This document shows positions 43,909 to 64,000 of a stretch of DNA of 64,000 nt, piece by piece (the first letter of the stretch is position 1; each line of letters starts with the position of its first letter). The translations under genes and the position numbers were made by a program. Origin of the DNA: Desulfovibrio mangrovi (GTDB lineage: Bacteria > Desulfobacterota > Desulfovibrionia > Desulfovibrionales > Desulfovibrionaceae); the NCBI RefSeq assembly GCF_026230175.1, contig NZ_CP104208.1, positions 2,666,001 through 2,730,000 on the forward strand, in the 5' to 3' direction. The notes below the pieces were generated by a model. The model worked only from the letters and a program-made list of their open reading frames with translations. It did no database searches and was not told where the DNA came from.

Positions 43909-45426
43909 ATGGGAGTCTTTCGCATCGCCGCCGCGCAGACCGGTTCCGTCAAGGGCGACATCACAGCCAATGTGGCCACGCATACCGTCGTTGCTGAACA
44001 GGCGGGCAGGCTGGGCGTTACCTACCTGCTCTTTCCCGAACTCAGCCTGACCGGCTACGAACCCACTCTTGCCGCAGAGCTGGCCATAACGCCGCCCCAC
44101 GTTCAGACAGACGCCCGCCTCGCCCCGCTCACGGAGGCTGCGCAGAAACACGGCATGATCATCGTGGCGGGTGCGCCGCTACGGGTTGAAGACGCTTCCG
44201 GCAAGCCCCACCTCGCCTCCTTAATCTTCCGGCCAGATGGCAGCGTGGGCGTGTATGCCAAGATTCATCTGCACTCCACGGAGGAAAACTACTTCTCCGC
44301 AGGCACCGAACATATGCTGGAGCCCTGCCATGGCGAACAGGTTGGGGTGACCATCTGTGCGGATATGTCCGCTCCTGAGCATGCCGCCACATATAAGAAT
44401 ATGGGCGCGACCATATACGCAGCCAGCGTGCTTGTTTCCGAAAACGGCTACGCGGCCGATGCCGCCATCATGGAAGCCCGCGCCAGAGAGCATGACCTGC
44501 TTGTGGCGATGTCCAACCACAACAAGCCCAGCGGCGGCTGGATTTCCGGCGGTCGCACCGCCATCTGGACGCCCGACGGGCAGTATTGTGCCGCAGGTGC
44601 CACGGAAGATGCACTGGTGGTGGCGGAGAGGGATGGGGATGGGTGGAAAGTGGAGCTTAAGAACCTACTGTCTGAGCAGCTACAAACACTAATCCATTCT
44701 GGTCCTATCAATGACATTTTTTCTTATGAAGAAGCCAAGGCCTGCTTAGAAGTCATCGCTGAACATGCATCAGCTATCAACATCAGAAGGCATGGACAAT
44801 TCTTTGGATACAACCAAAGAGTACTTTACGAAAAAATGATAATGCATGTTTGTAAAATATACAACAAGGAAAAATCACGATACAACGGATCATCAATATA
44901 CGACATATTAGAGTTTTTAGAATACAACAAAGATAATTTACCAATATTTGAAAGAGGAGCCGATGACATCACGTGGGAATATGAATGTAAAAAAATTGAG
45001 AATCATGTGCTCAATGCAGGGCGAGGAGAGGTACAAACAATCAACATTCCACACCTTACAATAACTTCAAAACCAAAACTAACAGAGAATTTTATTTCAA
45101 AAACAAAAGAAAGAATCCCTCGCAACTATTATAACGAAAAATGTGATTCACGAATTTCTCAACTAGAATATGTTAGAAACAAAAAAATAGCTCATCCTTC
45201 TCATGAATATGTCAGCAAGGATCAATATCCTGACATTGAAACACTAGACGACCTCATCGCAATAGCGAAAGAAAGCATTACGGAAATTTACAACAACTAT
45301 TTTCCTGACAGGTGTATACGTTACTCCGATGGAACATTCACAACAGCAACTACATCAAGCCGTTCCGCGACATCACTTAAAAAAATATTAAAAGATCTCA
45401 ACATAACACCTGATCCTCCAAAGTAA
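43909..45426 (+). CDS. Carbon-nitrogen hydrolase fused to an AT-rich HEPN-like segment
   Basis: A 505-residue chimera. Residues 1-246 are a GC-rich nitrilase-superfamily amidase with the Glu44/Lys118/Cys150 triad (LLFPELSLTGYE, VYAKIHLH, VTICADMS). Residues 247-505 are AT-rich and unlike the host: helical, Lys/Asn/Ile-rich, with R423-x5-H429 (VRNKKIAHPSHE), the RX4-6H motif of HEPN ribonucleases such as AbiU2-type proteins. The fusion begins at 44648, right after a 69-bp segment that recurs at 45498-45566. There the original amidase tail (WIARVVELAL and stop) survives. The cargo has no usable start of its own, so it is made only as this fusion. ATG 43909 follows GGAGG. Toxin or defence action is an inference. 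Confidence 0.85.
   Translation: MGVFRIAAAQTGSVKGDITANVATHTVVAEQAGRLGVTYLLFPELSLTGYEPTLAAELAITPPHVQTDARLAPLTEAAQKHGMIIVAGAPLRVEDASGKPHLASLIFRPDGSVGVYAKIHLHSTEENYFSAGTEHMLEPCHGEQVGVTICADMSAPEHAATYKNMGATIYAASVLVSENGYAADAAIMEARAREHDLLVAMSNHNKPSGGWISGGRTAIWTPDGQYCAAGATEDALVVAERDGDGWKVELKNLLSEQLQTLIHSGPINDIFSYEEAKACLEVIAEHASAINIRRHGQFFGYNQRVLYEKMIMHVCKIYNKEKSRYNGSSIYDILEFLEYNKDNLPIFERGADDITWEYECKKIENHVLNAGRGEVQTINIPHLTITSKPKLTENFISKTKERIPRNYYNEKCDSRISQLEYVRNKKIAHPSHEYVSKDQYPDIETLDDLIAIAKESITEIYNNYFPDRCIRYSDGTFTTATTSSRSATSLKKILKDLNITPDPPK
44579..44647 (+). repeat. Direct repeat DR-A1 (host-gene end, attached copy)
   Basis: 69 bp of the amidase gene (codes QYCAAGATEDALVVAERDG and the next three residues), 66 of 69 identical to 45498-45566. 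The three differences (GCA/GCG, CTG/TTG, GAG/GAA) are all synonymous. Confidence 0.95.
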
Positions 45427-45497
45427 AAAATACAGACGTAACCAACTGGTCTTTCTTATTTTTTTACCGCGTCGCCCTACTTATTCAGGCCCAACAC
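44648..45497 (+). mobile_element. AT-rich single-gene island A in the carbon-nitrogen hydrolase gene
   Basis: An 850-bp insert between the two 69-bp repeats, strongly AT-rich against GC-rich flanks. It holds only the HEPN-like coding segment and 71 bp of non-coding DNA after its stop (45427-45497). There is no integrase, transposase or terminal inverted repeat. Its sister island is 62519-63511. Confidence 0.75.
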
Positions 45498-45566
45498 GGC
45501 AGTATTGTGCCGCAGGTGCCACGGAAGATGCGTTGGTGGTGGCGGAAAGGGATGGGGATGGGTGGA
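45498..45566 (+). repeat. Direct repeat DR-A2 (distal copy)
   Basis: The distal partner of 44579-44647. Offset is 919 bp. Homology weakly extends leftwards as GCCC(G/A)AC, so the true exchange point may lie a few bases before 45498. Confidence 0.93.
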
Positions 45567-45595
45567 TCGCAAGGGTTGTGGAATTGGCGTTGTAA
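45498..45595 (+). pseudogene. Displaced 3' end of the carbon-nitrogen hydrolase gene
   Basis: 98 bp carry the last 31 codons and TAA of the original amidase. The first 69 bp (45498-45566) are the second copy of the direct repeat; the remainder codes IARVVELAL. No start codon serves it, so it is a dead fragment that marks the pre-insertion gene end. Confidence 0.9.
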
Positions 45596-45680
45596 CTCGC
45601 ACGCCTGCACATATGGAGAGAATTACCGGCCTCATTTTCGGACACGACAACCGGATCAAAAAAAACACAAGAGCAGCACC

Positions 45681-46022
45681 ATGAAAATGCAGAACATTCC
45701 CTTCGGCGTAACGGACTGGGACACTGTTGAACGCACCGAGCACAAAGGCGATACCGGCGTTGCCTACTGGCGAACCCGCCACTTCGGGGAGACGGGGAAC
45801 GAAATTCGCGTCCGCATGGTGGAATATTCTGCGGACTACCGGGCGGACCACTGGTGCAGCAAGGGGCACATTCTGCTCTGTCTGGAAGGAGAGCTCGAAA
45901 CCACGCTGGAAGACGGCCGCGTTTTCATCCTGAAATCCGGCATGAGCTATCAGGTGGCAGATCAGGCTGAAGCGCACCAGTCATATACGGAAAAAGGCGC
46001 GAAGCTGTTTATCGTGGATTAG
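45681..46022 (+). CDS. DHCW-motif cupin-fold protein
   Basis: Small cupin of 113 residues with the motif ADHWCSKGHILLCLEGEL at about 51-68, that is the D-H-x-C/W signature with metal-ligand His, and a second cupin stretch GMSYQVADQAEAH. The family is structurally known but its reaction is not. It follows the displaced amidase end after 85 bases. The ATG at 45681 begins MKMQNIPFGVTDWD; no strong ribosome site precedes it. It ends at a hairpin terminator. Confidence 0.88.
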   Translation: MKMQNIPFGVTDWDTVERTEHKGDTGVAYWRTRHFGETGNEIRVRMVEYSADYRADHWCSKGHILLCLEGELETTLEDGRVFILKSGMSYQVADQAEAHQSYTEKGAKLFIVD

Positions 46023-46031
46023 CACATAAAC

Positions 46032-46060
46032 AAAGGGCAGCCGCTTGCGACTGCCCTTTC
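46032..46060. terminator. Terminator between the cupin and ybaK genes
   Basis: The stem AAAGGGCAG/CTGCCCTTT with a ten-base loop lies between convergent genes and has A and T flanks for both strands. Confidence 0.75.
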
Positions 46061-46076
46061 ATTCATGGAAATACGT

Positions 46077-46559
46077 CTATTTCTTTACTTCCAGCACGGC
46101 ACCCCTGGTCATCTCCACCAGTATCTGCGGCGTCAGACGGAACACGGAATTGGGCGTGCCCGCCGCAGCCCAGATCTCTTCATACTGCAGCAGATCTTCA
46201 TCCACTATGGTGGTAATGGCCGTTGCATGCCCCACAGGCGGAATGCCGCCGATGGCGTAGCCGGTGTGTTTCAGCACGAAGGCGGCGTCGGCTTTTTCCA
46301 GCTTCTCGCCCAGATGCGCCTTCACGGCCTTTTCATTCACCCTGTTCGCGCCGCTGGCAATGACCAGAATGGGCGACTGGGATTCCTTGCCCTTGAAGAT
46401 CAGCGACTTGGCAATCTGCCCCACGGTGCAGCCAATGGCGTCCGCAGCCTCCTGCGAGGTGCGGGTAGACTCGGCAAATTCCTTGACGCTCAGCGCATAG
46501 CCGAAGGCATCCAGCGCCTGCTGCACCTTCTGGGCGCTCTTTTTCAGATCGGAAGGCAT
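46077..46559 (-). CDS. ybaK: YbaK/EbsC-family aminoacyl-tRNA deacylase
   Basis: Protein of 160 residues of the YbaK/ProX editing family, which hydrolyses mischarged aminoacyl-tRNA (for example Cys-tRNA-Pro). Visible motifs are AIGCTVGQIAKSLIFKG near residue 42, the conserved Lys in VNEKAVKAHLG, and GYAIGGIPPVGHA, the family Gly-Gly-Pro loop. It acts in trans in the cytoplasm. The gene is followed by the cupin terminator and preceded by a short gap to the unknown gene upstream. Confidence 0.92.
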   Translation of the reverse strand: MPSDLKKSAQKVQQALDAFGYALSVKEFAESTRTSQEAADAIGCTVGQIAKSLIFKGKESQSPILVIASGANRVNEKAVKAHLGEKLEKADAAFVLKHTGYAIGGIPPVGHATAITTIVDEDLLQYEEIWAAAGTPNSVFRLTPQILVEMTRGAVLEVKK

Positions 46560-46604
46560 GACGGAACTCTCCTGTGCAACACGAAGATGCGCGATTCGCT
46601 CTCC

Positions 46605-47540
46605 CTACCCCCGCAGCGTGACGGCGGTCTTCAGGAAGGCGATGACGGCGGGAACGGTGCCCTGATTCTTGAGCAGGATGTCGATATCCGGCAGAGCGAT
46701 GAGCCGGTGCCCAAGGAACTGGGTGAAGGTGTAGGGGGCAAGGCCGAGGTTCGGCGCAAAGGTGCGCAGCGCCTTGGACCCGAAGGTGATGCAGTAGCGG
46801 GGCCGCGCACGGCGAAGACCCGCAAGAAAGATTTCCGGAGCGGCAATGAGCTCGCTGCCTGCGTCCGTTCCGGATTCAGGGGCAACCTCGGGCAGGGCCA
46901 CGGGCCAGAACGCGCTGGAGCCGGCGGGCAGTTGCAGCGAACCGATGATCTTGCGCAGCAACGCGCCGCGCTCGGCATTGGCTCGACCGCTCAGGTCGTC
47001 GCCAAGGCTCCAGTAGGTCCAGACCACGGCGCTGGGGGCCTTCACCTTGCCCCATACGGCCTGCCACGGGGCGGGCCACTGTTCCGGCGGCTGCGAGGTG
47101 GGATGCACGGCAAGCCCGCTGGTCCCCATGGCCCGAACATTTCCGGCGGGCTGAGCACCATGAGCCTGACTCGGCGCCTGAGTCGGAGCCTGACCTTGCA
47201 TGGGCTGATTCTGCGCAGCCTTCTGGCGTGCGGCATAAGCCTGCGCATGCGAAGGCTGGGCCTGCTGCGGTCGGGCAGCCTGCGGAGGATACGACTGACG
47301 AGACTGGGGCGACACGCCCTGTCCTGAACCGGCCTGAGAAAAGACCTGATTCGCGACAGGCCCCTGCGCCTGCTGTTCCGCAGCGTCACTTACGGAGCCA
47401 GCAGCAAAAAGTCCGTGTTCATCCAACACGAACTCAAGCCCTGCGTTCCGCCATGGACGCAATGATTCAGCAATCGTTATAACTGCAGGAGCCAATCGAG
47501 CACTCTCCACGCCACTTCGGTCTTGGGCTGCACAGGCCAT
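46605..47540 (-). CDS. Protein of unknown function overlapping coaBC
   Basis: A protein of about 311 residues that I do not recognise. Residues 1-50 form a short domain. Residues about 55-150 are a low-complexity Gln/Ala/Pro/Ser linker. The C-terminal 150 residues look folded (AVVWTYWSLGDDLSG, YCITFGSKALRTFAP, HRLIALPDIDILLKNQ). The gene begins inside the 3' end of coaBC in another frame (64 bp overlap from ATG 47540; a GTG at 47510 is an alternative start). The C-terminal part vaguely resembles DNA-glycosylase-type folds, but no motif supports this. Confidence 0.7.
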   Translation of the reverse strand: MACAAQDRSGVESARLAPAVITIAESLRPWRNAGLEFVLDEHGLFAAGSVSDAAEQQAQGPVANQVFSQAGSGQGVSPQSRQSYPPQAARPQQAQPSHAQAYAARQKAAQNQPMQGQAPTQAPSQAHGAQPAGNVRAMGTSGLAVHPTSQPPEQWPAPWQAVWGKVKAPSAVVWTYWSLGDDLSGRANAERGALLRKIIGSLQLPAGSSAFWPVALPEVAPESGTDAGSELIAAPEIFLAGLRRARPRYCITFGSKALRTFAPNLGLAPYTFTQFLGHRLIALPDIDILLKNQGTVPAVIAFLKTAVTLRG

Positions 47541-48685
47541 TCTTCCTGCCGCCCGTTACGGTCGGTGACAAATACCTCGTTCGTGGGCGATTGAAAACCG
47601 GAATCCGGCCTTCCCACAATGTTGCCCACGACCATGTCCGCATTCTTGGCGCGCAGCTTCTTCAGCGCGTTTTCCTGCATGGAACTGGTTTCCGCGGCAA
47701 AGCCGACAACGCGCTGCCCCTGCTTCTTGGCAGTGCCCAGCGTCTTGAGAATGTCCGTGGTGGGGGTAAAGCGCACCACAAGCTCGTCGGAGCCTTTCTT
47801 GAACTTCTCGTCACCAAAGGGAACGGGGCTGAAGTCGGCAACGGCGGCAGTGAACACGCCGATATCCATGGCAGGCCACAGCCCTTCCGCCGCCTCGAAC
47901 ATCTCCTTGGCAGAGGTCACGGCGTGTCGGGTGATCATGGAAGGCAGCCACGGCGTTCCGGGACCGGTCACGGCATGCACGGTGGCCCCGCGCAGCCATG
48001 CGGCCACGGCAAAACACGCGCCCATGGTGCCGGATGAGGGATTGGACCAGAAGCGCACCCCGTCCCACTTCTCGCGGGTGGGTCCAAGGGTGATCATGAC
48101 GGTTTGCCCCGCCATGTCCTGCGGCGCAAGCGCCCGCAGGCCGTAGAGGTAAATCTCGTTCAAATCCGCAAGCCTGCCCTGCCCTTCCTCCATGCAGGCA
48201 GTGCGACCGCATCCGGGCTCTATGCACACGTGCCCGCGGGCCTTCAGGGTTTCCCAGTTGGCCTGCGTGGCGGCATTGTGCCACATGCGCGGATTCATGG
48301 CCGGTGCAATGACCAGCGGCTTGGGAAACGCCAGCGCCTGACAGCTGAGCATGTCGTCGGCAAGGCCGTTGGCAAGACGCGCCAGCGTGGCGGCCGTGGC
48401 AGGCGCAATGAGCATGGCATGCGCCGCCTCACCGGGGGTGAGATGCCCGAAGACATCATCACCGACCGGATACATGGCGGAAAATACGGGAGAGGCCCCC
48501 AGAGCCTCAAAGCTCAGGGGCATCACGAATTGACGGGCAGAATCGGTCAGGGTCGCGCCCACGTCCGCGCCAGTGTCGCGGAACATGCGGACGAGATCCA
48601 GCGCCTTGTAGGCGGCAATGGAGCCGCACACACCCAGATGCAGACGCTTGCCGAGAAAGCCTTTGAACGAGAGATGGGAAAGCAC
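47477..48685 (-). CDS. coaBC: Bifunctional phosphopantothenoylcysteine decarboxylase / phosphopantothenate-cysteine ligase
   Basis: Two steps of coenzyme A synthesis in one protein of 402 residues. The N-terminal CoaC flavoprotein domain has GVCGSIAAYKALDLVR, the catalytic-His region and the PAMNPRMW substrate motif. The C-terminal CoaB domain has TLGPTREKWDGVRFWSNPSSG, AAVADF and GFAAET. The start is GTG 48685, sharing one base with the TAG stop of the upstream lipoprotein gene (TAGTG). This tight junction implies coupled translation. Confidence 0.95.
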   Translation of the reverse strand: MLSHLSFKGFLGKRLHLGVCGSIAAYKALDLVRMFRDTGADVGATLTDSARQFVMPLSFEALGASPVFSAMYPVGDDVFGHLTPGEAAHAMLIAPATAATLARLANGLADDMLSCQALAFPKPLVIAPAMNPRMWHNAATQANWETLKARGHVCIEPGCGRTACMEEGQGRLADLNEIYLYGLRALAPQDMAGQTVMITLGPTREKWDGVRFWSNPSSGTMGACFAVAAWLRGATVHAVTGPGTPWLPSMITRHAVTSAKEMFEAAEGLWPAMDIGVFTAAVADFSPVPFGDEKFKKGSDELVVRFTPTTDILKTLGTAKKQGQRVVGFAAETSSMQENALKKLRAKNADMVVGNIVGRPDSGFQSPTNEVFVTDRNGRQEEWPVQPKTEVAWRVLDWLLQL

Positions 48686-49251
48686 TACTGGCTTAGTCCT
48701 TCTTCTTTGAGGGGAGCGGAACCGCCTGCGGGGGCGGAGGGAGCCACATTGATTCCGTTGCCGTTCCCCATGGAGGGCGAAATAACCGGACGGATGGTCC
48801 GTTCCTGCCCGTTAATGGGATAGACATCAACAGACAATTCGGTTCTGGTGGTGCCGTCTACAATCTTCATGACACAAAACCGCGTGGACTTGCTGAAGAT
48901 GAGCACGCTGCGCGGGGACGAAACAAAATTGAAATTGAGGGTCCAGCCGTCATTGGTCATGTTGGCGATCAGGGTTGTCGCCAGCGAACGAAATTCCACA
49001 CGACCGGTAAAGAACATCAGCCCCAGCTTGTCGGAGCCGGTACCGATGAAAAACGACTCGTTCCCTTTGTAGGTCATTTCGTTGGGAATGAAGATATCGT
49101 CATAGTCAATGTAGCGGAATTTCTGAGCGGCGGAGCCGGAAACAGTGCCTTCGACGGGATCGGAACCTGCACCGGAAGAGAGCGTTGATCCGGTACAACC
49201 GGAGACGGCGATACCCAGCAGCATGAGCAGGGCGAGAAGTCTGGTTCGCAT
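48685..49251 (-). CDS. Lipoprotein of unknown function
   Basis: Predicted lipoprotein of 188 residues with a signal peptide MRTRLLALLMLLGIAVSGC (lipobox VSGC). The mature domain (about 45-150) is beta-rich with YIDYDDIFIPNEMTYK and a region of conserved-looking FFTGRVEFRSLATTL. The C-terminus is low-complexity Gly/Pro/Ala. The family is not certain. It is transcribed upstream of coaBC, which is unusual for an envelope protein. Confidence 0.78.
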   Translation of the reverse strand: MRTRLLALLMLLGIAVSGCTGSTLSSGAGSDPVEGTVSGSAAQKFRYIDYDDIFIPNEMTYKGNESFFIGTGSDKLGLMFFTGRVEFRSLATTLIANMTNDGWTLNFNFVSSPRSVLIFSKSTRFCVMKIVDGTTRTELSVDVYPINGQERTIRPVISPSMGNGNGINVAPSAPAGGSAPLKEEGLSQ

Positions 49252-49403
49252 TCGTTACTCCTTTATGATTGAGTCTTGAGCGAATCAGGTGTACGCACGG
49301 CCTTGCCGAGGGCACAGCATCATCGCTAGCCCTTACTAACGGATTGCGGAACAAACTGCAAATTTCCGCACCGTATTTTACACTACACAGACTGCAATCA
49401 CAC

Positions 49404-50549
49404 ATGAAAACCAAAGCAATAGACACCAGTAACGCCGTTCTCACAGAGAGTGGAGCCCCTGTTCCGCCGGACTTTGCTCTCGCATCCTACACCTACGACC
49501 TGCCGGAAGAACAGATCGCACAGCACCCTGCAGACAAGCGCGGGGCCTCGCGCCTGTTTGTGGTGAACCGCGCCACTGGCACCAACACCCACGCCATGTT
49601 CTCCGATCTGGCCGACTTTCTGCCCAAGAATGCCCTGCTGGTGGTCAACAATTCCAAGGTGCTTCCCGCCCGTATCTTCGGCACCCGCCCCTCAGGTGGA
49701 CGGGTGGAATTTCTCATGCTCACCCCCCTGCCGCTCATTGTGGCAAGCGCCGCCCCCGAGAAGGGCGAAGGTTGGCAGACCGCAGAGGTTGAAGGCCTGC
49801 TGCGCATGTCCAAGCGCGTGAAGCCCGGGGGAGAAGTGACCTTTTCCGACGATTTCCACCTTGTGGTGGCGGAGACCGGCGAGTTCGGCAAATGCTTCGT
49901 GCGCCTCTTCTGGCGCGGTGAGCTCAAGCAGCACTTCCTCTCGCAGGGTCATCTGCCCCTGCCCCCTTATATCAAGCGCGAGGACGACTCAGCCGACAAG
50001 GACCGCTACCAGACCGTATACGCCAAGGACGAACAGCTCGGTTCCGTTGCCGCCCCCACCGCGGGCCTCCATTTCACGGACGAGTTGCGCACCCGACTTG
50101 CCGAACGCGGCTTCACCTGGGCGGAAGTCACGCTCTACGTGGGCTACGGCACGTTCAGTCCCGTACGCTGCGCGGACATCCGCGACCACGGCATGCACAA
50201 GGAATTTATCGAGATCACACCCGAAGCGGCCGAGGCCATTGCCAAGGCCAAGGCGGAAGGCCGCCCCATCGTCACCGTGGGCACCACCTCCACCCGGGTT
50301 CTGGAAGGTGCCTTTGCGCAAACCGGCAAAATAGCCCCTTTCAGAGGCTGGACTGACATCTTTATTTATCCCGGATTTGCGTTTAAGGTGGCGGACCACG
50401 TGATCACGAACTTTCATCTGCCGGAGTCTTCCCTCCTTATGATGATAGGCGCGTTCGCCGGCCGCGAGCGGGTACTGGAGGCCTATGCCGAAGCTCTGAG
50501 CAAGGGGTTCAGGGTGTTCAGCTACGGCGATTCCATGCTGCTTCTGTAG
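49404..50549 (+). CDS. queA: S-adenosylmethionine:tRNA ribosyltransferase-isomerase
   Basis: Transfers and isomerises the ribosyl part of SAM to form epoxyqueuosine in tRNA. The 381-residue length is a little longer than usual, because of about 27 N-terminal residues and an insert. Family landmarks are the YDLPEEQIAQHPADKRGASRL start, VVNNSKVLPARIFG, GHLPLPPYI, APTAGLHFT and LPESSLLMMIGAFAG. The start at MKTKAIDT is not well supported by a ribosome site; a start nearer LASYTYDLP is possible. It is divergent from the lipoprotein-coaBC set. Confidence 0.94.
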   Translation: MKTKAIDTSNAVLTESGAPVPPDFALASYTYDLPEEQIAQHPADKRGASRLFVVNRATGTNTHAMFSDLADFLPKNALLVVNNSKVLPARIFGTRPSGGRVEFLMLTPLPLIVASAAPEKGEGWQTAEVEGLLRMSKRVKPGGEVTFSDDFHLVVAETGEFGKCFVRLFWRGELKQHFLSQGHLPLPPYIKREDDSADKDRYQTVYAKDEQLGSVAAPTAGLHFTDELRTRLAERGFTWAEVTLYVGYGTFSPVRCADIRDHGMHKEFIEITPEAAEAIAKAKAEGRPIVTVGTTSTRVLEGAFAQTGKIAPFRGWTDIFIYPGFAFKVADHVITNFHLPESSLLMMIGAFAGRERVLEAYAEALSKGFRVFSYGDSMLLL

Positions 50550-50870
50550 GCTGCCGTCGGGGGCAACCGACGGGCTGCGTCGTTCGCACAGGCTCCGGCC
50601 GTCCACGGCTGTCGGCCTGATGCCGCGCGCAGAACGCGAAGACTGAACTCTGTGCCGGACCTCGTTGTCCCGGCCGAAGACGAAGAACGCATTCACGGGG
50701 ACTGGCCCATCGGGATTCCAGTAACAGAAACGCCGTACGCAGGGTGGGCTGTGGCGATTTGAATCGGGCGCGAATCCGGTGTATGAAACCGGTCGGCCTG
50801 AGTATACCGCAACCTGCGGTATCGCCCGCCTGCAGGGCAAGGCAACATCCTTAACCCAGAGGTGTTACGA
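50550..50870 (+). other. Leader region of the oor operon with stable hairpins
   Basis: No gene is seen. Two clean hairpins precede the operon: CCGGT/ACCGG (50776-50792) and ATACCGCA/TGCGGTAT (50804-50822, three-base loop). They sit 50-95 bases before the first ATG and may form a structured leader. No known riboswitch class was recognised. Confidence 0.45.
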
Positions 50871-51098
50871 ATGGCACGGGTAGAATTTAGGGACGAGAGG
50901 TGCAAAGGATGCCTTCTCTGTACGACCGTATGCCCCAAGGAGATCATCTGCCAGTCAGCCCGCTTCAACAAGCAGGGCTACAAGGTGGCAGAGGTCAAGG
51001 AAGAGGACATGGAAAAATGCACGGGCTGTGCGTCTTGTGCATTGATATGCCCTGATCTTGCGATCAAAGTGTACCGCGAGAAGAAGGAGAAGAAGTAG
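50871..51098 (+). CDS. oorD: 2-oxoacid:ferredoxin oxidoreductase, ferredoxin-like delta subunit
   Basis: Small electron-transfer subunit of 75 residues with two 4Fe-4S motifs: CKGCLLCTTVCP at about 11-22 and CTGCASCALICP at about 50-61. It is the first gene of a four-gene operon in the order D-A-B-C, as in the oorDABC genes of epsilonproteobacteria. AGAGG precedes the ATG. Confidence 0.92.
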   Translation: MARVEFRDERCKGCLLCTTVCPKEIICQSARFNKQGYKVAEVKEEDMEKCTGCASCALICPDLAIKVYREKKEKK

Positions 51099-51100
51099 CC

Positions 51101-52162: not shown

Positions 52163-52165
52163 GCC

Positions 52166-53508: not shown

Positions 53509-53541
53509 AGCTGAAGCAGGACCGACCGCCTAATAGAAATG

Positions 53542-53575
53542 AAAGTCCCCGCAGGATTACCTGCGGGGACTTTTT
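53542..53575 (+). terminator. Rho-independent terminator after oorDABC
   Basis: A perfect 14-base-pair stem AAAGTCCCCGCAGG/CCTGCGGGGACTTT with loop ATTA is followed by TT. Confidence 0.9.
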
Positions 53576-56800: not shown

Positions 56801-57972
56801 CCTCCCGCAGTCTGCTCATCATCGAGGACAACCTTGAATTTGCCCGCATCATGCGCGATTTCGCCCGTGAACGCGGCTTCAAATGTCTTGTGGCAGGCGA
56901 TGGCGAAACCGGCCTGCACTACGCGGACTACTACAAGCCAAGCGCCATCATTCTTGATATCGGCCTGCCCGGTATTGACGGTTGGACCGTCATGGAGCGG
57001 CTCAAGGACAATCCCGAACTGCGCCACATTCCCGTCCATTTCATGTCCGCGGCAGACAGCTCGCTGGACGCCATGCGCATGGGGGCCATAGGCTACCTGA
57101 CCAAACCCGTAAGCATGGAAAAGATCGAGGAAGCGTTTGCCAAACTGGAACATGTCATCTCCAAGCCGGTGAGCAAACTGCTGCTGGTGGAAGACGACCC
57201 CATTCAGCGCCGCAGCATTCAGGAGCTCATCGGCAACGGCGACGTGCAGACCATTGCCGTTTCCACCGGGGCAGAAGCCTTCCGCGAACTGGAAAAGGGC
57301 GGCTACGACTGCATGATTCTGGACCTCGGCCTTGAGGACATGTCCGGCTTCGATCTTCTGGAGCAGGTACGGCAGAGCGAAACCTCCGTACGCGTGCCCA
57401 TCATCATCTATACCGGCCGCGACCTGACCCGCGAAGAGGAAAAGCAGCTCAACCGCTATGCGGAAACCATCATCATCAAGGGCGTGAAGTCGCCGGAACG
57501 CCTGCTCGACGAATCGGCTCTGTTCCTGCATCGCGTGGAAGCCAACCTGCCGGAGGAAAAGCGCCGCATGCTCAAGCAGGCGCACGACAAGGAAGCCGTG
57601 CTGGCCGAAAAGACGGTACTTCTTGTGGATGACGACATGCGCAACGTCTTTGCCCTTTCCAGCCTGCTGGAAGAAAAGCAGATGAACGTTGTCATCGCCC
57701 GCAACGGCATTGAATGTCTGGACAAGCTCAAGGAAGGCCTGCGCCCCAACGCAGTGCTCATGGACATCATGATGCCAGTAATGGACGGCTACGAGGCCAT
57801 GCGCGAAATCCGCAAACAGCGCAACTTTGCCAAGATGCCCATCATCGCCCTCACGGCCAAGGCCATGAAGGGGGACCGCAGCAAGTGCATTGAAGCCGGT
57901 GCCAGCGACTATCTCGCCAAGCCCGTGGATACGGAAAAGTTGCTCTCCATGCTGAGAGTCTGGTTATATTGA
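53824..57972 (+). CDS. Large hybrid histidine kinase: Cache-HAMP-GAF-coiled coil-HisKA-HATPase-three receivers
   Basis: Inner-membrane kinase of 1382 residues. TM1 is at about 12-32 and TM2 at about 337-360, with a double-Cache type periplasmic domain between. HAMP covers about 362-415 and GAF about 440-570. A coiled coil at about 575-690 is built from three 28-residue repeats. HisKA has His697 in NMSHELRTPLN, and the ATPase has DEGIGIAKE and GTGLGLSI. A Pro-rich linker follows, then receivers starting near 997 (LLIIEDN), 1118 (LLLVEDD) and 1264 (VLLVDDD), each with its phospho-Asp. It is the first gene of an operon with cheR, cheB and a diguanylate cyclase. The signal is unknown. Confidence 0.94.
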   Translation: MFHFLADIRIRPKLVFLFVATGLVPLIIVGAFGTKLTKDSLLQKSFDQLETVQSVRKAQIEDFFHERFADTQVMADSIRIRDLQSLLNAFDTDKRTEEMETAAREKAHRALVAPYLKGLESHIAAYGYQNLYLIDANHGHVLLSLTGELESGDSLSVGSHKKTGLADAWRAALASNDTVITDFAPYGPRRGAEAAFIAQPVRNDAGEIIGVLALQLSPELITRIVDSRKGMGSTGESYLLGINAQTSEYELRSNLKTMGDGRYVVGYSLSTPLQYWHSARKAGETGGQGTYTDSAGNPVQVAYNKLSVAGLDWYLISKIDEYEVTAPVRAIYWAIGSIAAGLALFISIGSIIFSRTLTRPIIEGVHFAKAISEGDLHSSLALDQKDELGELANALNTMAQDLRNMDWLQSGKEGLDDEMRGEHETDDLARRAISYLTKHLGAQLGAIYLLEDNELKLRSSYAFTDRGGNFNSFALGEGMVGQAALEQKTIVFSNVRPEANTPVPAINFGAGETVPTNFMAVPVIFEEMLLGVILIGSLQTLSPLQRQFVNQNIPNVAIMLNAARSRQVIRELFEQAQRQQEELRVANIELEDQTRALQESEAELQAQQEELRVTNEELEEQTKALRESEAELQAQQEELRVTNEELEERTKALQDQKDAIRTKNAELVKAQEVVRQKARDLEIASKYKSEFLANMSHELRTPLNSILILSQLMANNKDGNLNVRQIDSAKAINSAGSDLLTLINEILDLSKIEAGKVELLVETFPVDALVTDLKRLFNNVAEDKGLDFRISVSGNVPQDITTDSQRLQQVLRNLLTNAFKFTHKGAVTLDIMRPAPTNGDSGSRGIAFIVKDEGIGIAKEKQEAIFQAFQQADGSTSRKYGGTGLGLSISRELVRLLGGTISLHSEEGKGSTFTVILPESYTKAASEDLPEAAVLPETNDVLPDAAKTPSEPLACNPSPETVSGPGLPVPDKKTVPPCESGYLEDDRKDITPASRSLLIIEDNLEFARIMRDFARERGFKCLVAGDGETGLHYADYYKPSAIILDIGLPGIDGWTVMERLKDNPELRHIPVHFMSAADSSLDAMRMGAIGYLTKPVSMEKIEEAFAKLEHVISKPVSKLLLVEDDPIQRRSIQELIGNGDVQTIAVSTGAEAFRELEKGGYDCMILDLGLEDMSGFDLLEQVRQSETSVRVPIIIYTGRDLTREEEKQLNRYAETIIIKGVKSPERLLDESALFLHRVEANLPEEKRRMLKQAHDKEAVLAEKTVLLVDDDMRNVFALSSLLEEKQMNVVIARNGIECLDKLKEGLRPNAVLMDIMMPVMDGYEAMREIRKQRNFAKMPIIALTAKAMKGDRSKCIEAGASDYLAKPVDTEKLLSMLRVWLY
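55561..55797 (+). repeat. Three tandem 84-bp units coding a coiled coil
   Basis: Units start at 55561, 55645 and 55729. Each codes 28 residues of the form QEELRVTNEELEEQTKALRE. The period of 28 fits four heptads, so repeat-number changes would keep coiled-coil phase. Confidence 0.85.
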
Positions 57973-57973
57973 T

Positions 57974-58810
57974 ATGAGCATGCCGGAACACATAGACAAC
58001 GAACGGCTTGAAATACAGCTGCTGCTGGAAGCCGTGTACCGTAAATACGGGTACGACTTCAGGAATTACGCCTGCGCCCACACCAAGCGGCGGCTGGAAC
58101 ACAGGCGTGCGATGGAAGGGCTGGGCGACTATTCCCAGATGATGCACCGCCTCATCCACGACGAGGAATTCTTCGATACGGTGCTGCTCGACCTTTCCAT
58201 CAACGTGACGGAAATGTTCCGCGACCCGTGGTTCTATAAGAAAGTGCGCGAAGCCGTGGTGCCGCACCTGTGCACCTACCCCTTCATCAAGGTATGGCAT
58301 GCCGGATGCTCCGCAGGGCAGGAAGTCTATTCCATGGCCATTCTGCTGGAAGAGGAAGGCATGCGCGAACGCGTGCAGATCTATGCGACGGACTTCAACG
58401 AAATCGTTCTGCAAAAAGCCAAGGACGGCATTTACCCTGTAGATCTCATCCGCGAATACACGACGAACTACCAGAAAGCGGGCGGCACCCAGTCCTTTTC
58501 CGATTACTACACTGCGGACTATGCCAGCGTGGTCATGAAGCGCTCCCTGCGCGAACAGGTGCTTTTTTCTTCCCACAATCTGGTTACAGACGGCGTGTTC
58601 GGCGAGATGAACGTCATATTCTGTCGCAACGTCCTCATTTATTTCAACAGAGAACTCCAGAACAAGGTACTCAAACTCTTCTACGACAGTCTCTGCCCCG
58701 GCGGTTTCCTGTGCCTTGGCTCCAAGGAGACACTCATGTTCTCTGAGATTGCGGACAAGTTCGAGGTCATCGCGGACAGGGAAAAGATATACCGTAAAAA
58801 ACGGATGTAG
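57974..58810 (+). CDS. cheR: CheR-type protein-glutamate methyltransferase
   Basis: SAM-dependent methyltransferase of 278 residues. It has the N-terminal helical CheR domain, then INVTEMFRDPWFYK near residue 77, the SAM-binding HAGCSAGQEVYSMAI, an ATDFNEIVLQKA motif, and VIFCRNVLIYF in the catalytic domain. It begins one base after the hybrid kinase stop. No chemoreceptor, CheA or CheW gene is nearby. Its substrate may be the coiled-coil or another part of the partner kinase rather than a classical receptor (inference). Confidence 0.93.
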   Translation: MSMPEHIDNERLEIQLLLEAVYRKYGYDFRNYACAHTKRRLEHRRAMEGLGDYSQMMHRLIHDEEFFDTVLLDLSINVTEMFRDPWFYKKVREAVVPHLCTYPFIKVWHAGCSAGQEVYSMAILLEEEGMRERVQIYATDFNEIVLQKAKDGIYPVDLIREYTTNYQKAGGTQSFSDYYTADYASVVMKRSLREQVLFSSHNLVTDGVFGEMNVIFCRNVLIYFNRELQNKVLKLFYDSLCPGGFLCLGSKETLMFSEIADKFEVIADREKIYRKKRM

Positions 58811-58824
58811 CCGGACGGAGAACC

Positions 58825-59409
58825 ATGTCCCCACACCCGAAGAAATACGAAGCCGTTGTCATCGGCGTATCTGCCGGAGGCCTTACCGCCCTGGAGACCA
58901 TCCTTTCGGCGCTCCATGCCTCGTTCTCCCTGCCCGTACTCATCGTGCAGCACATCAGCCCGGATGCCGAAAGCTATCTGCCGCAGCATTTTGCCACCCG
59001 CTGCCCACTGCCTGTGAAAGAGGCGGACGATAAAGAAGACATCATGGCCCGCACCATATATTTTGCCCCGCCCGACTATCACATGATGGTTGAGCTTGAC
59101 CGCAGCATCTCTCTTTCCGTAGAACGCCGCGTCAACTTTTCCCGCCCCTCCGTGGACGTGCTGTTTGAAACTGCGGCAGAAGCTTACGGAGACGGCCTCA
59201 TCGGGATCATCCTGACCGGTGCGAACCACGATGGTGCAGCGGGACTGGCCCGCATCAAGCAACTCGGCGGCCTCACCATCGTGCAGGCACCTGAAACCGC
59301 TCAGGCTAATGCCATGCCCCGCGCTGCGCTGGAAGCCACACAGGCAGACCATATTTTGACCCTGAAAGACATTGCAAGGCAGCTCAACGCCCTGGAGGGT
59401 GCATTATGA
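58825..59409 (+). CDS. cheB: CheB-type methylesterase lacking the receiver domain
   Basis: The catalytic domain only, 194 residues. It has GVSAGGLTALE (nucleophile Ser), QHISPDAESYLP (catalytic His) and LTGANHDGAAGL (Asp). Classical chemotaxis CheB has an N-terminal receiver; it is absent here, so activity is not controlled by direct phosphorylation. It lies between cheR and the REC-GGDEF gene and overlaps the latter by 4 bp. Confidence 0.93.
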   Translation: MSPHPKKYEAVVIGVSAGGLTALETILSALHASFSLPVLIVQHISPDAESYLPQHFATRCPLPVKEADDKEDIMARTIYFAPPDYHMMVELDRSISLSVERRVNFSRPSVDVLFETAAEAYGDGLIGIILTGANHDGAAGLARIKQLGGLTIVQAPETAQANAMPRAALEATQADHILTLKDIARQLNALEGAL

Positions 59410-60449
59410 GAAAGCCCAAAATACTCATCGTGGACGACAAACCCGCCAACCTGCTGGCGCTGGGTGGCCTGCTGGCCGACCTTGACGTGGAACTCGTCGA
59501 AGCCAATTCCGGTGCGGACGCCCTTGCGCAGACGCTGGACCACGATTTCGCCCTTGTGCTGCTGGACGTGCAGATGCCGGACATGGACGGCTACGAAGTT
59601 GCCGAACTCATGCGCGGCAACAGAAAGACGCGACATGTGCCCATCATCTTCGTTACCGCCGCCTACAAGCGCGAAACCCACATCTTCAAGGGCTACGAAT
59701 CCGGTGCCGTGGACTATCTTTTCAAGCCCCTTGAGCCGCTCGTGTTCAAAAGCAAGGTAGGGGTGTTTCTCGAGCTGTTCCGCCACAAGGAAGAGCTGGA
59801 AGCGAAGAGACGGGAACTGGACAGGAAACTTGTGGAACTGGAAGAGTTGCAGCAGCAGCTTGAAGAAACCAACGAACAGCTCCTCTATCTTTCCGTCACG
59901 GACGGCCTGACCGGTCTCAGCAACAGGCGACACTTTGAAGAGGTCTATAATGAGGAATGGGCGCGCAGCCTGCGCAACCGCACCCCCCTTTCCCTGCTGC
60001 TGCTCGATATCGACCACTTCAAGGCATACAACGATACCTACGGACACGGCGCTGGTGACGACTGCCTGCGACGCATATCGCTCACCCTTTCCGAGATCGT
60101 CCAGCGGGATGTGGACAAGCTGGCCCGCATAGGCGGAGAGGAATTTGCCATTCTGCTGCCCGGAACAGACACCCCCGGTGCCGAGTTCGTGGCCAGAAAA
60201 CTGCTGCTTGCCGTCTCCACCAAGGACCTGCCCCATGGCGCTTCCGGCACAGCCGACTATGTGACGATTTCCATAGGCGTCGCCTCTACGGTGCCGGACA
60301 GAATGCTCTCGCCCCGCACCGTGTATGATGCTGCGGACAAGGCGCTCTATTCTGCCAAAAAACAAGGCCGTAATCGGGTGTGCAGTTCCCCCCAGTTCTT
60401 CGTGGAACTGGGTGATGACTCCCTTCACAATGCGGCCTCCATGTTCTGA
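59406..60449 (+). CDS. Response regulator with GGDEF domain (diguanylate cyclase)
   Basis: A 347-residue protein with an N-terminal receiver (ILIVDDKPAN; phospho-Asp in LVLLDVQMPDMDG) followed by a coiled linker (about 125-160) and a GGDEF domain. The active site reads GGEEF in RIGGEEFAIL. An inhibitory I-site RxxD (RDVD) lies five residues before it. The protein should make cyclic di-GMP when phosphorylated, probably by the hybrid kinase of the same operon, and be feedback-inhibited. Its ATG overlaps the cheB stop (ATGA). Confidence 0.95.
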   Translation: MRKPKILIVDDKPANLLALGGLLADLDVELVEANSGADALAQTLDHDFALVLLDVQMPDMDGYEVAELMRGNRKTRHVPIIFVTAAYKRETHIFKGYESGAVDYLFKPLEPLVFKSKVGVFLELFRHKEELEAKRRELDRKLVELEELQQQLEETNEQLLYLSVTDGLTGLSNRRHFEEVYNEEWARSLRNRTPLSLLLLDIDHFKAYNDTYGHGAGDDCLRRISLTLSEIVQRDVDKLARIGGEEFAILLPGTDTPGAEFVARKLLLAVSTKDLPHGASGTADYVTISIGVASTVPDRMLSPRTVYDAADKALYSAKKQGRNRVCSSPQFFVELGDDSLHNAASMF

Positions 60450-60481
60450 TCCTCATAGCGCCAGTCGCAACAGAACAACAA

Positions 60482-60526
60482 AGCCCCCTCCCCTGTGAAC
60501 AGCTTCCAGAGGAGGGGGGGGTCTTT
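60482..60526 (+). terminator. Possible terminator after the signalling operon
   Basis: GCCCCCTCCCCT pairs imperfectly with a G-rich arm (AGAGGAGGGGGGGG), followed by TCTTT. It is GC-rich but imperfect. Confidence 0.4.
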
Positions 60527-60650
60527 AGGCGAAGTGCACGGGCAACATGGCCCATGCCCGTCAGAGACAAACGCAGAAAAGGCTGACTGCAATACAAACC
60601 GTACAGCAGAGCCGTTACATATCGCAGCCAATCTTCGGCAAAGTCATCGG

Positions 60651-61286
60651 CTACCGCTCGGAGACCGCCAGTTTCACCCCCAGCCCCACAAGCACACCGC
60701 CAAGGGTACGATCCAACCAGACGCGCAAGCGGCGGCTTTCACGCAGGCGTCCGGTAAGACGATCGCCGACAAAAACAAGCGGCGGTTCCACAAATGCGGC
60801 CACCACAATGACGAGCACGCCATGCAGCATCAACTGCACCCACGCCGGCCCCGCCTCCGGCTCCACGAACTGGGGCAGAAAGGCAAGAAAGAAGGTCGCC
60901 ACCTTGGGATTGAGCAGGTCTACCAAAGCTCCCTGACGGAAGACGGAAAACAATCCGACCTGTTCCTGAATGTCGCCGATATCCAACGCATCGCCCTGTG
61001 AACGCAAGGCTTGCCAGCCCAACCATAACAGATAGCCCACGCCTACCCACTTCACCACGGCAAACACGGCTGCCGAGGCGGCAATAATGGCGGAAAGGCC
61101 CAGCGCAGCCAGCAACACATGCCCGAAGGCACCGGTCCAGATGCCCAGCATGGCAGCGGTTCCGGCCCGCCTGCCTCCCTTGACCGTATGGCTCAAAATA
61201 AACGCGAAATCCGGCCCCGGAGCGATGTTCAGCAGAAAGGCCGCCGTGAAGAAAGACAGCCAGTGCGTAAGGTCATATTCAAGCAT
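60651..61286 (-). CDS. LysE-family amino-acid exporter
   Basis: Inner-membrane protein of 211 residues with about six membrane spans. It shows the LysE/RhtB features: FLLNIAPGPDFAFILSHTVKGG with the Pro-Gly-Pro motif near residue 17, GIWTGAFGHVLLAALGL, a central LLNPKVATFFLAFLPQF, and C-terminal hydrophobic helices. The start at ATG 61286 has AAGGGG; an upstream in-frame Met would add an unlikely hydrophilic tail. Substrate is unknown (homoserine, Thr, Lys or similar). It is a single gene on the minus strand. Confidence 0.9.
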   Translation of the reverse strand: MLEYDLTHWLSFFTAAFLLNIAPGPDFAFILSHTVKGGRRAGTAAMLGIWTGAFGHVLLAALGLSAIIAASAAVFAVVKWVGVGYLLWLGWQALRSQGDALDIGDIQEQVGLFSVFRQGALVDLLNPKVATFFLAFLPQFVEPEAGPAWVQLMLHGVLVIVVAAFVEPPLVFVGDRLTGRLRESRRLRVWLDRTLGGVLVGLGVKLAVSER

Positions 61287-61535
61287 ATTCGCCCCTTGCG
61301 TTACGAATGATGAAGGGCAGTGTCCTATCACCCGACAGAGGGCTCGGCAAGGGGATGGAAAAGCTGCACCAAACCCCACCTAGGCGGTTCCGTGCCTGCA
61401 CAGAATATAATTCCATAGAGCTATATAGAATGCACTAATCATCCTGCAATACACCGCAGCGGCATGGCTGGTTTCCGATGGCCGGATAGCTCAACACCAT
61501 GGCGGAGGCGGAAAAACAGACAAAGGAGATACAAG

Positions 61536-62351
61536 ATGAAGTGCATGCAAGTACGGTTTGTCACACGAGTAATTACGATGGTTATAGCTTGTTTGCTGCT
61601 GGGCGCCATGTTCATTCCACAGGTGTTCGCCCAGTCGGCTGCGGATGAAAAAGACGAGATATACATGCTCACCGCCTATTCCGTTGTGCTGAACGACTGG
61701 CAGGCAGACGGCACCCCCGACAAACGGGGACATAATATCGGCTCCATCCTTGTTGACGATCAAGGCAACATCGTTCGCTGGGCACGCAACTGCAACGCCC
61801 GACTAAAAAACGGCACTCAGCACGGCGAGGTGCGGCTGATGGTTGGCTATCTCAGCACAACGCAAAAAAACTATCTTTCCGGCTACACCATTTACACCTC
61901 GCTGGAACCCTGCGCCCAGTGCAGCGGCATGATGGACCTGACCCAGGTGTCCCGCACCGTATACGGCCAGACAGACCCGGCCTACGGCAAGGCCATTGAA
62001 CGGCTGGCTCTGAACAGCAAAGCATGGAACGAGCACGGCTACACCCCCTATCCCCGTTCCGAAAACCTGCATTCCGACAGAAGCAAAACGCCCTACTGCC
62101 AGCAGCTTGAAGATGCCTACGCACAGGCCGGCGGCTCCATCACCAAGTTCCTGCTGAGCCCGACGGCAAAGGGAATATACGAAGCCGCCGCGCAGAAACT
62201 GCAAGCCTATCAGATCGAACATCAGGAAAATGCCGCTGTTCTGCAGCAGGCCAAGCAATTCCTGCAGACCGTTCAGCCCGGCATTCCCCATATCCAGATG
62301 AGTGATGCAGCACGGTATCTTAACACCCGCGCCATAGCGCTCATGCCCTAG
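61536..62351 (+). CDS. Exported protein of the cytidine/deoxycytidylate deaminase fold
   Basis: A 271-residue protein with a signal peptide (VITMVIACLLLGAMFIPQVFA) at the N-terminus, so it is exported. The mature part carries both zinc-site motifs of the deaminase fold: H-x-E in TQHGEVRL near residue 100, and PCxxC in SLEPCAQCSGMM near 127. The C-terminal 130 residues are helical without a known domain. AAAGGAG precedes the ATG. Nucleobase or nucleoside deamination outside the cytoplasm would be unusual; the substrate is unknown. Codon use matches the host. Confidence 0.8.
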   Translation: MKCMQVRFVTRVITMVIACLLLGAMFIPQVFAQSAADEKDEIYMLTAYSVVLNDWQADGTPDKRGHNIGSILVDDQGNIVRWARNCNARLKNGTQHGEVRLMVGYLSTTQKNYLSGYTIYTSLEPCAQCSGMMDLTQVSRTVYGQTDPAYGKAIERLALNSKAWNEHGYTPYPRSENLHSDRSKTPYCQQLEDAYAQAGGSITKFLLSPTAKGIYEAAAQKLQAYQIEHQENAAVLQQAKQFLQTVQPGIPHIQMSDAARYLNTRAIALMP

Positions 62352-62377
62352 CGCCGGTTCGCTGCTGCCCAAATAAA

Positions 62378-62402
62378 AAAGCCGCCCTTTCGGGCGGCTT
62401 TC
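62378..62402. terminator. Terminator between the deaminase gene and the displaced hisF end
   Basis: AAAGCCGCCC/GGGCGGCTTT with loop TTTC, flanked by A and T runs. A near-copy lies at 63463-63489 beyond the attached hisF end, so the terminator appears duplicated with the gene end. Confidence 0.85.
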
Positions 62403-62426
62403 ATTATTCTTGCGATTGCGACGACA

Positions 62427-62518
62427 CTACCAGACCATGCGCATTTTCGCGCCCATGGCGTTGATCTGCCGCTTCAGGTCCGGAATGGTGTATTCCCCAT
62501 AATGCACGATGGAGGCGA
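62427..62518 (-). pseudogene. Displaced 3' end of hisF
   Basis: 92 bp on the minus strand code the last 30 residues of HisF (from [13 protein letters not shown] to MRMVW) and a TAG stop. Positions 62428-62518 match 63512-63602 in 88 of 91 bases. All three changes are synonymous (GAC/GAT, CTG/CTC, TAT/TAC in the coding strand), and the stop differs (TAG here, TAA in the attached copy). It has no start and is a relic of the gene end before insertion. Confidence 0.92.
62428..62518 (-). repeat. Direct repeat DR-B2 (distal copy of the hisF end)
   Basis: The distal partner of 63512-63602. Offset is 1084 bp. The match ends sharply on both sides. Confidence 0.93.
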
Positions 62519-62640
62519 AGGAACTAACAAAGACGTCGTCATGATCGAACCTCTAACCAAGAGACAATACACTTAAGCCGGCACAAGCGGTGTTCTCTAC
62601 ATGCAAGACAACCGCAAAGTCATGCCCCCCTCGACAAAGA

Positions 62641-62669
62641 TTGACACATATAAACTCCGCGAATATTCA
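62641..62669 (+). promoter_or_regulatory. Sigma-70-type promoter of the island B gene
   Basis: TTGACA (62641-62646) and TATTCA (62664-62669) are 17 bases apart, giving a start near 62677, about 35 bases before the ATG. Confidence 0.55.
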
Positions 62670-62710
62670 GACAATTAACAAGCTACAGCACAACCTACAC
62701 CCTATACTCA

Positions 62711-63454
62711 ATGGTGCCCAATAACATGACGAAAGCTCCAACCTCTTGCGTTCTCAACCACGACGGAACATTGAAACGTTGGTTCATTATCTCAACGTTA
62801 TCAATATGCCTATTAGCAACAATAGCAACATCTGACGATACATACATACACCCATCTCTCAGCAATCATTTATTAAGTCATATTTTGAACCATACAAACT
62901 CTACGCTACACTCTATATCAACCTCGATACTCACAAGCATAATCTTTTATTACTTTGTTGTTTATCTATATGAATCAAGCAAAGTCAATCGTTTAAAAAG
63001 AATTCTAATAAAACCAGTTAATTTTATATTGGATACTAAAGACTCTGGGATATATTATTGGAGTAAAAATATATATTTTTGTGACAATACAATTTCTCAC
63101 GAGAAAGTTTCAGAATTCAAGAAATATTTATCAAACACAAAATTAAATGGCTTAGATATGAAATATACTCTAACGGCATGTTCAGAGTCATACCACACCT
63201 TCACCGCCCTAACCACAATTGCCGCCCAAATATCACCAGAGTGCCTAGCTCAATGGACTGGACTCACAAGAAGCATTCAGCTTCTTGCAGACTTAAGCTA
63301 TCGTTTTGAGAAAGAAACGCAACTAATCGATACCAATAACAAAAACTCATCGGAATTATTTCAAGAATATATAAGTTTATCCGACAAGAATAGGGAGGAA
63401 TACAAACTATACTTTGACGAATTCATTAAAATACTCGAGGACTTTCTACGATAG
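62711..63454 (+). CDS. AT-rich membrane protein of unknown function (island B cargo)
   Basis: Protein of 247 residues, not recognised. Two membrane segments are visible, at about 24-41 (FIISTLSICLLATIAT) and 68-88 (SISTSILTSIIFYYFVVYLY), followed by a cytoplasmic or periplasmic helical domain of about 155 residues rich in Lys, Asn, Ser and Ile. The two-TM plus soluble-domain layout is like that of several phage-defence effectors, such as SLATT-type proteins, but no motif proves it. Base composition is strongly AT-rich against the surroundings. A second Met at 62726 is an alternative start; neither has a strong ribosome site. Confidence 0.75.
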   Translation: MVPNNMTKAPTSCVLNHDGTLKRWFIISTLSICLLATIATSDDTYIHPSLSNHLLSHILNHTNSTLHSISTSILTSIIFYYFVVYLYESSKVNRLKRILIKPVNFILDTKDSGIYYWSKNIYFCDNTISHEKVSEFKKYLSNTKLNGLDMKYTLTACSESYHTFTALTTIAAQISPECLAQWTGLTRSIQLLADLSYRFEKETQLIDTNNKNSSELFQEYISLSDKNREEYKLYFDEFIKILEDFLR

Positions 63455-63462
63455 CCCAAACA

Positions 63463-63489
63463 AGAAGCCGCCCTTTCGGGCGGCTTCTT
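63463..63489. terminator. Terminator between the island B gene and hisF
   Basis: The stem GAAGCCGCCC/GGGCGGCTTC with loop TTTC is almost the same as 62378-62402. It serves both convergent genes. Confidence 0.85.
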
Positions 63490-63510
63490 TATGTATCTAT
63501 TGTCGGCTTT

Positions 63511-64000
63511 TTACCAGACCATGCGCATTTTCGCGCCCATGGCGTTGATCTGCCGCTTGAGATCCGGAATGGTGTATTCCCCGTAATGCACGATGGAGGC
63601 GATGAGCGCGGCGGTGGCCTTGCCCTTGGTCAGCGCATCATGCATATGCTTGGGGTTGCCCGCACCGCCTGAGGCGATGACGGGAATGGACACGGCTTCG
63701 GCAATCATGCGGGTCAGGGTCAGTTCATAACCGTCCTTGGTGCCGTCGGCGTCAATGGAGTTCACGCAGATTTCACCGGCACCGAGGGCTTCAGCGGTCT
63801 TGGCCCACTCGATGGCGTCCATGCCCATGTGCTTGCGGCCGCCGTGGATGACGATCTCATAGCCGGAGGGAATGTCTTCGGTCTTCTCCACCTGCTTCAC
63901 GTCCATGCCCAGCACGATGGCCTGCGAGCCGAAACGGACAGCACCTTCACTGATGATGTCGGGATTCTTCACCGCGCCGGAGTTCACGGAAATCTTTTCG
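63511..64000 (-). CDS. hisF: Imidazole glycerol phosphate synthase cyclase subunit (5' end outside window)
   Basis: Cyclase half of the HisFH enzyme of histidine synthesis, which forms IGP and AICAR. The visible 163 residues cover the C-terminal part of the (beta/alpha)8 barrel. They include [12 protein letters not shown], the VLGMDVK strand, the catalytic-Asp region [26 protein letters not shown] (phosphate loop) and the C-terminus [18 protein letters not shown]. The frame continues past the window edge. The final 91 bp are duplicated at 62428-62518; this attached copy completes the gene and ends in TAA, so the enzyme should be intact. Confidence 0.95.
63512..63602 (-). repeat. Direct repeat DR-B1 (hisF end attached to the gene body)
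   Basis: 91 bp identical to 62428-62518 at 88 positions. It forms the present 3' end of functional hisF. Confidence 0.93.

Follow-up and report, generated by a model that had tools for sequence, protein, structure and literature searches.

Doubled ends of housekeeping genes around AT-rich islands in Desulfovibrio mangrovi: possible scars of lopsided recombination

Two islands with a common build

A stretch of 64,000 nucleotides from the Desulfovibrio mangrovi genome (contig NZ_CP104208.1, positions 2,666,001 to 2,730,000; hereafter the window) carries two small AT-rich islands, one at the 3' end of a carbon-nitrogen (CN) hydrolase gene and the other at that of hisF. At both, the end of the host gene is present twice, once attached to the body of the gene and once as a displaced tail beyond the island, and the DNA between the copies holds a single gene, the cargo (Table 1). 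GC content between the repeat copies is 0.36 at both islands, versus 0.57 for the surrounding block. All six mismatches inside the two repeat pairs are synonymous in the host frame (6/6), at residues A, L and E in the hydrolase and Y, D and L in hisF, a divergence that would be expected if one copy came from a related strain. An earlier reading, made from the letters of the window only and called here the sequence-only reading, had reported this common build, the repeat identities with their six synonymous mismatches, the lengths of the displaced tails counted to the stop, and the lack of a recombinase in the islands. All of these stand, the last in that scans of the cargo proteins from the two islands gave no recombinase match.

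The DNA of the hisF island found no match in phages and that of the hydrolase island none in plasmids. A tRNA as the target of insertion was rejected, as ARAGORN finds no tRNA in the window. By our own estimate the 17 kb between the two islands is unremarkable, since three events of this kind were found in 1.67 Mb of the genome (see below).

The attached hydrolase copy is open in frame into the cargo gene, such that a single open reading frame (ORF) of 544 aa joins CN_hydrolase to HEPN_AbiU2; this predicted protein could be a real fusion or a chance product of the joint. A HEPN homologue in another genome (G149) begins, as read by eye, within about three residues of the GTG at 44650. The label HEPN-like, given to the cargo beforehand, is confirmed by the Pfam match (2.4e-10). 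Because the attached hydrolase reads into the HEPN gene, the island supplies no new stop-bearing end for the D. mangrovi hydrolase; at hisF a complete end is regained. A 24-mer at the joint between cargo and displaced tail resembles the end of a YbaK-family gene (17-18/24), at the same spot as a longer YbaK piece in a sister species; the resemblance may mark a remnant, but is suggestive only, because a 17/24 match also occurs elsewhere in the YbaK gene of another genome (G003).

At hisF the duplicated stretch (153 bp, 87%) does not end at the stop but takes in a terminator-like hairpin as well, and beyond the 91 bases of the repeat the copies differ in their stop (TAA/TAG) and in the codon at the joint (I/F). 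The cargo reads convergently up to the hairpin, and its product matched no family in Pfam, PADLOC, NCBIfam or PHROGs under the cut-offs applied. A gene for a cytidine-deaminase-like protein (window 61464-62351; PF00383 1.3e-12, also Bd3614-deam and MafB19-deam) follows the displaced hisF tail; a similar ORF is found near hisF in the congener G004, and none among the ORFs listed for the stretch read behind hisF in G009.

Table 1. Coordinates in the window of the two islands and of the genes next to them
Feature	Position	Strand	Remarks
CN-hydrolase gene, attached part	43909..44647	+	Pfam CN_hydrolase 2.7e-30; frame runs on into cargo (ORF 43792-45426)
Attached copy, hydrolase tail repeat	44579..44647	+	66/69 identical to 45498-45566
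Cargo 1, HEPN_AbiU2 protein	44650..45426	+	Pfam 2.4e-10; possible GTG start
Possible YbaK-family gene-end remnant at joint	45477..45500	-	17-18/24 match
Displaced hydrolase tail, 98 bp incl. stop	45498..45595	+	Repeat part 45498-45566
Resident cupin gene (DHCW_cupin), 3' of displaced tail	45681..46022	+	NCBIfam NF038084
Resident YbaK-family gene; end copied at G009 joint	46077..46559	-	Sequence comparison and family match
Terminator-like hairpin, behind displaced hisF tail	62369..62400		Repeat family D3
Displaced hisF tail, 92 bp incl. stop	62427..62518	-	Repeat part 62428-62518, 88/91 identical to 63512-63602
Donor-side DNA, joint to cargo 2	62519..62710		Only self-match among sequences compared
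Cargo 2, 247-aa protein, convergent with hisF	62711..63454	+	Two likely membrane spans (by eye)
Terminator-like hairpin, between cargo 2 and attached hisF	63455..63486		Repeat family D3
Attached copy, hisF tail repeat	63512..63602	-	88/91
hisF, 3' part inside window	63511..63999	-	Pfam His_biosynth 3.3e-40

The same hydrolase with another cargo in a sister species

The D. mangrovi hydrolase has its sole close relative in a sister species (G009), and there the hydrolase tail is doubled as well (112 bp, 97%), around a gene for an HNH protein (PF01844 1.3e-8). Two of the three mismatches between these tail copies are synonymous, the third changing V to M. An 83-bp 3' end of a YbaK-family gene abuts the displaced tail, with 96% identity to the YbaK of G009 itself and 84% to that of D. 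mangrovi, while the full YbaK-family gene of G009 stands beyond the cupin. YbaK piece and hydrolase tail overlap by 3 bp (GCC), and the stops of the HNH gene and of the YbaK piece are 2 bp apart. On a plain reading, a donor with the gene order hydrolase-HNH-YbaK would have supplied DNA ending inside YbaK, giving this joint. Behind the displaced hydrolase tails the resident cupin and YbaK genes are kept. The two insertions at this gene do not share a repeat border, their repeats starting 19 bp apart. The G009 hydrolase also carries a short in-frame repetitive insert (REDTSSSEDTSPRADEATPERDG) that is absent from D. mangrovi.

Among the other congeners the hydrolase of G004 is 52% identical to that of D. 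mangrovi and the rest are lower. G004 has the order hydrolase-cupin-YbaK with nothing inserted, so that the search for empty sites in relatives, which the sequence-only reading had advised, yields one island-free genome here, albeit only that one and with a hydrolase just 52% identical. At hisF the outcome is clearer: in the 10 genus genomes searched a second hisF tail is found in D. mangrovi only, the tail being single in 9/9 other congeners, and an old genus-wide duplication is rejected for this gene (doubled in 0/9). A wider search with the hisF tail in 288 family genomes returned, among the matches listed, tail copies not separable from paralogues.

The scar at other loci

We scanned 1.674 Mb of the D. 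mangrovi genome (42%) and, in G009, 0.8 Mb. Repeat copies had to be 50 bp or longer, to lie 400-3500 bp apart and to exceed the GC of the intervening DNA by at least 0.10; GC-rich cargo such as that of G114 below escapes this filter. The scan returned 11 direct pairs (three in D. mangrovi, eight in G009) and 0 inverted pairs, on which ground chance repeats were rejected. The D. mangrovi pairs are the hydrolase, hisF and a phage baseplate gene (phrog_4011), the last enclosing 2.2 kb of cargo in which a GNAT protein is encoded, and having tail copies that differ at 8 synonymous and 7 non-synonymous codons. The eight pairs in G009 comprise the hydrolase, four rhs-type loci, one of them with three copies and so counted as three pairs, and one putative polymorphic toxin, judged by eye. 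RHS models score above cut-off at three of the four rhs-type loci; the fourth (81449/82516) has a Teneurin YD-shell match below cut-off only. The rhs-type repeats are 85-167 bp long. The three-copy locus (G009 C16:315359-317819, equal to L121:15359-17819) consists of three successive rhs core ends with about 1 kb of AT-rich DNA between them and two displaced tips in a row.

Outside these two genomes the last 128 bp of rlmN (TIGR00048) are doubled, at 97.7% and 96.1%, in two near-identical metagenome-assembled genomes (MAGs), one of them titled Syntrophaceae; the two loci (L214 and L215) are 99.7% identical over 8.7 kb and count as one case. The DNA between the copies encodes an MNT/HepT pair, an HNH protein and a DUF6933 protein, with no recombinase match among the proteins scanned (a 106-aa ORF lay outside the scan). 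G114 shows a variant at a DUF2784 gene, whose tail has a decayed second copy (72 bp, 82%). Between gene and copy lies a GC-rich methyltransferase gene, and directly behind the decayed copy (L183) is an HNH relative. The further loci that the sequence-only reading had proposed to look for therefore exist, at the G009 hydrolase, the D. mangrovi baseplate gene, rlmN in the MAGs and, as a variant, the DUF2784 gene of G114. Since the scar is present with varied cargo at hydrolase, baseplate, rlmN and rhs genes, it is tied neither to one cargo nor to one host gene.

AbiU2 was found in 12 of 297 genomes (12 loci), with direct repeats at four of the 12 and, with about 1.5 kb compared on each side, repeats on both sides at the window locus only (1/12), the repeats in G088 being one-sided; on this count carriage specific to the cargo was rejected. 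The HNH family was surveyed at 80 of 146 loci in the genome_contigs collection, 50 of the 80 having 2.5 kb on both sides, and repeats on both sides were seen at 8/80, with one clear case (rlmN, L214/L215). Repeats stand in several copies around HNH relatives at L210, L249 and L272, and from their look these might be integron attC arrays. Three loci were set aside: L233 for hairpin-like repeats, L262 for repeats without an ORF of 60 codons and L221 for a 75% match between two long ORFs. At L250 the repeats are one-sided, with the same 72-mers as in G114.

The two-span membrane protein beside hisF has a full relative in D. mangrovi only, among 297 genomes, and none in genome_contigs; G125 and a second place in D. 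mangrovi match about 75-80 residues. The second D. mangrovi relative (42% over 73 residues, E 2.8e-4; L180, and L145/L146 at 1526500-1528000) has phage portal-like and baseplate genes as neighbours in an AT-rich stretch, about 4 kb away from the tail island at the baseplate gene. The idea of a defence-gene dispersal system is supported by part of the cargo: HEPN_AbiU2, HNH and MNT/HepT fit it, while the two-span protein, GNAT, DUF6933 and the methyltransferase do not clearly do so.

Lopsided recombination and its alternatives

We favour, with a probability of roughly 0.55, the view that the islands result from lopsided but ordinary recombination, that is, from import by homology-facilitated illegitimate recombination (HFIR), which would give housekeeping genes the same anatomy as rhs C-terminal displacement. 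The donor would be a close relative in which a different gene stands just behind the host gene in question, and each island would represent one additive chromosomal import. One side of the incoming DNA would recombine with its homologous stretch within the host gene. The other would be joined illegitimately, at a point of little homology some 90-160 bp short of the end of the resident gene, whose tail would be kept together with the following DNA, now about 1 kb farther downstream and beyond the new gene. While we infer donor, uptake route and recombination pathway, a homologous anchor is found on one side (the host gene plus 69-153 bp of tail at 87-97%), and the GCC overlap at the G009 hydrolase is a joint of low homology. 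DprA and ComEC are present in the genome. HFIR has been proposed for effector displacement in Vibrio (PMC5361080) and reported at low efficiency in E. coli conjugation (PMC3240628), homology-assisted illegitimate recombination has been suggested for variable segments (PMC2884548), and transformation can also yield duplications by unequal pairing (PMC3784515). The six non-rhs displaced tails all measure 92-156 bp, or 0.12-0.23 of the host gene, with a product of the six fractions of 8e-6, both being based on approximate gene lengths entered by hand. Selection may account for the bias towards 3' ends, in that a gene whose 3' tail is displaced stays full-length and keeps its own promoter.

Several observations weigh against this view. 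No donor strain was found in the 297 genomes or in genome_contigs, and microhomology is readable at one joint only. The stopless attached hydrolase of D. mangrovi is not predicted by simple import of an intact donor end. DprA and ComEC are also present in E. coli and other controls, and hence are no proof of competence. Finally, the tails fall in a narrow range, whereas free joints should scatter unless long repeats have been lost; the range may reflect loss of long repeats by RecA deletion, or a vehicle of set size.

A rival model is the one that Jackson et al. proposed for rhs tips (PMC2935791), in which small circles integrate by one crossover. Applied here, end-joined circles of host-gene tail and cargo would arise in the donor, and one crossover within the homologous tail would integrate them. 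The G009 joint of YbaK end and hydrolase tail is exactly as expected from an end-joined hydrolase-HNH-YbaK fragment, and the 92-156 bp tails could be the homology carried by the circle. However, no circles have been observed, crossovers would be rare where an imperfect homology spans only about 100 bp, and the map cannot separate such integration from one-sided import of linear DNA; we therefore treat this model as possible but unlikely. It is doubtful that there exist recombinase-free mobile cassettes, circles or fragments of cargo plus about 90-160 bp of host-gene end that spread by short homology and often carry defence-type genes; if they do, it would be the vehicle, rather than survivorship, that accounts for the narrow tails and for the repeated choice of one gene in two species.

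The sequence-only reading had instead envisaged compact elements with an integration logic of their own. Non-autonomous elements, site-specific for gene ends, bringing a replacement end and mobilised by a recombinase in trans, would need no internal recombinase gene, and would account for the same hydrolase end with different cargo in two species and for the complete end regained at hisF. Such an element sits poorly with the offset between the hydrolase repeat starts, the G009 island ending in a piece of a chromosomal neighbour, the hydrolase end left unrestored in D. mangrovi, and rhs loci with the same scar. Because no recombinase was found, the host genes are unrelated and the joints differ, a dedicated element is not supported, and we think it improbable. 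If gene ends had been tandemly duplicated long ago in the lineage and cargo later swapped between the copies, this would explain why the hydrolase tail is doubled in both species, perhaps with a YbaK end at both joints. Yet tail copies are 96-97% identical within species versus 88-90% between them (longer matches between D. mangrovi and G009, attached copy), the joints are unlike on either side, no doubling is seen in G004 and hisF is doubled in D. mangrovi only, all of which makes this explanation very hard to credit.

Relation to known systems

Short accessory DNA between conserved genes, in some cases with direct repeats, is known from small variable segments at the species level (PMC2884548), where 66-94% of the direct repeats are under 30 bp; the accessible part of that account makes no mention of displaced gene ends some 100 bp long. 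In the minimal mobile elements of Neisseria, a slot between conserved genes holds one of several alternative genes, which replace one another through homology in the flanks. Unlike these, the islands leave the resident slot gene in place together with a copy of the tail. An island borne by an integrase would hold a recombinase gene, and none was found among the cargo proteins scanned.

Displacement of type VI secretion system (T6SS) effectors in Vibrio is closer (Kirchberger et al. 2017, PMC5361080), with its upstream homology anchor, illegitimate downstream joint and retention of resident DNA; there an effector is displaced and its immunity gene kept, whereas here the hosts are housekeeping genes and the cargo single accessory genes. 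In titles and abstract openings of the open-licence literature searched, displaced tails of housekeeping genes are not described, which is weak evidence of novelty.

The closest likeness is to rhs C-terminal displacement as set out by Jackson et al. (2009, PMC2935791): a repeated end piece, imported DNA between the copies, the old end downstream, and three-copy arrays such as that at G009 315359-317819. Rhs cores, however, end in variable toxin tips. Neither hisF nor the hydrolase is a secreted polymorphic toxin, and at hisF the end regained is the same one; repeated end pieces around imported DNA are shared, and a polymorphic-toxin host is lacking at hisF, CN_hydrolase and rlmN. A displaced housekeeping tail is a readable scar of additive import, preserving the recipient's original end, the imported end and perhaps a piece of the donor's next gene. 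Scans of single genomes for such tails would measure how often, with no recombinase involved, accessory and defence genes are trapped in the flanks of core genes; to date this rate has been discussed chiefly in connection with toxin loci and laboratory transformation. The displacement scar, already published for rhs, is here seen at housekeeping genes.

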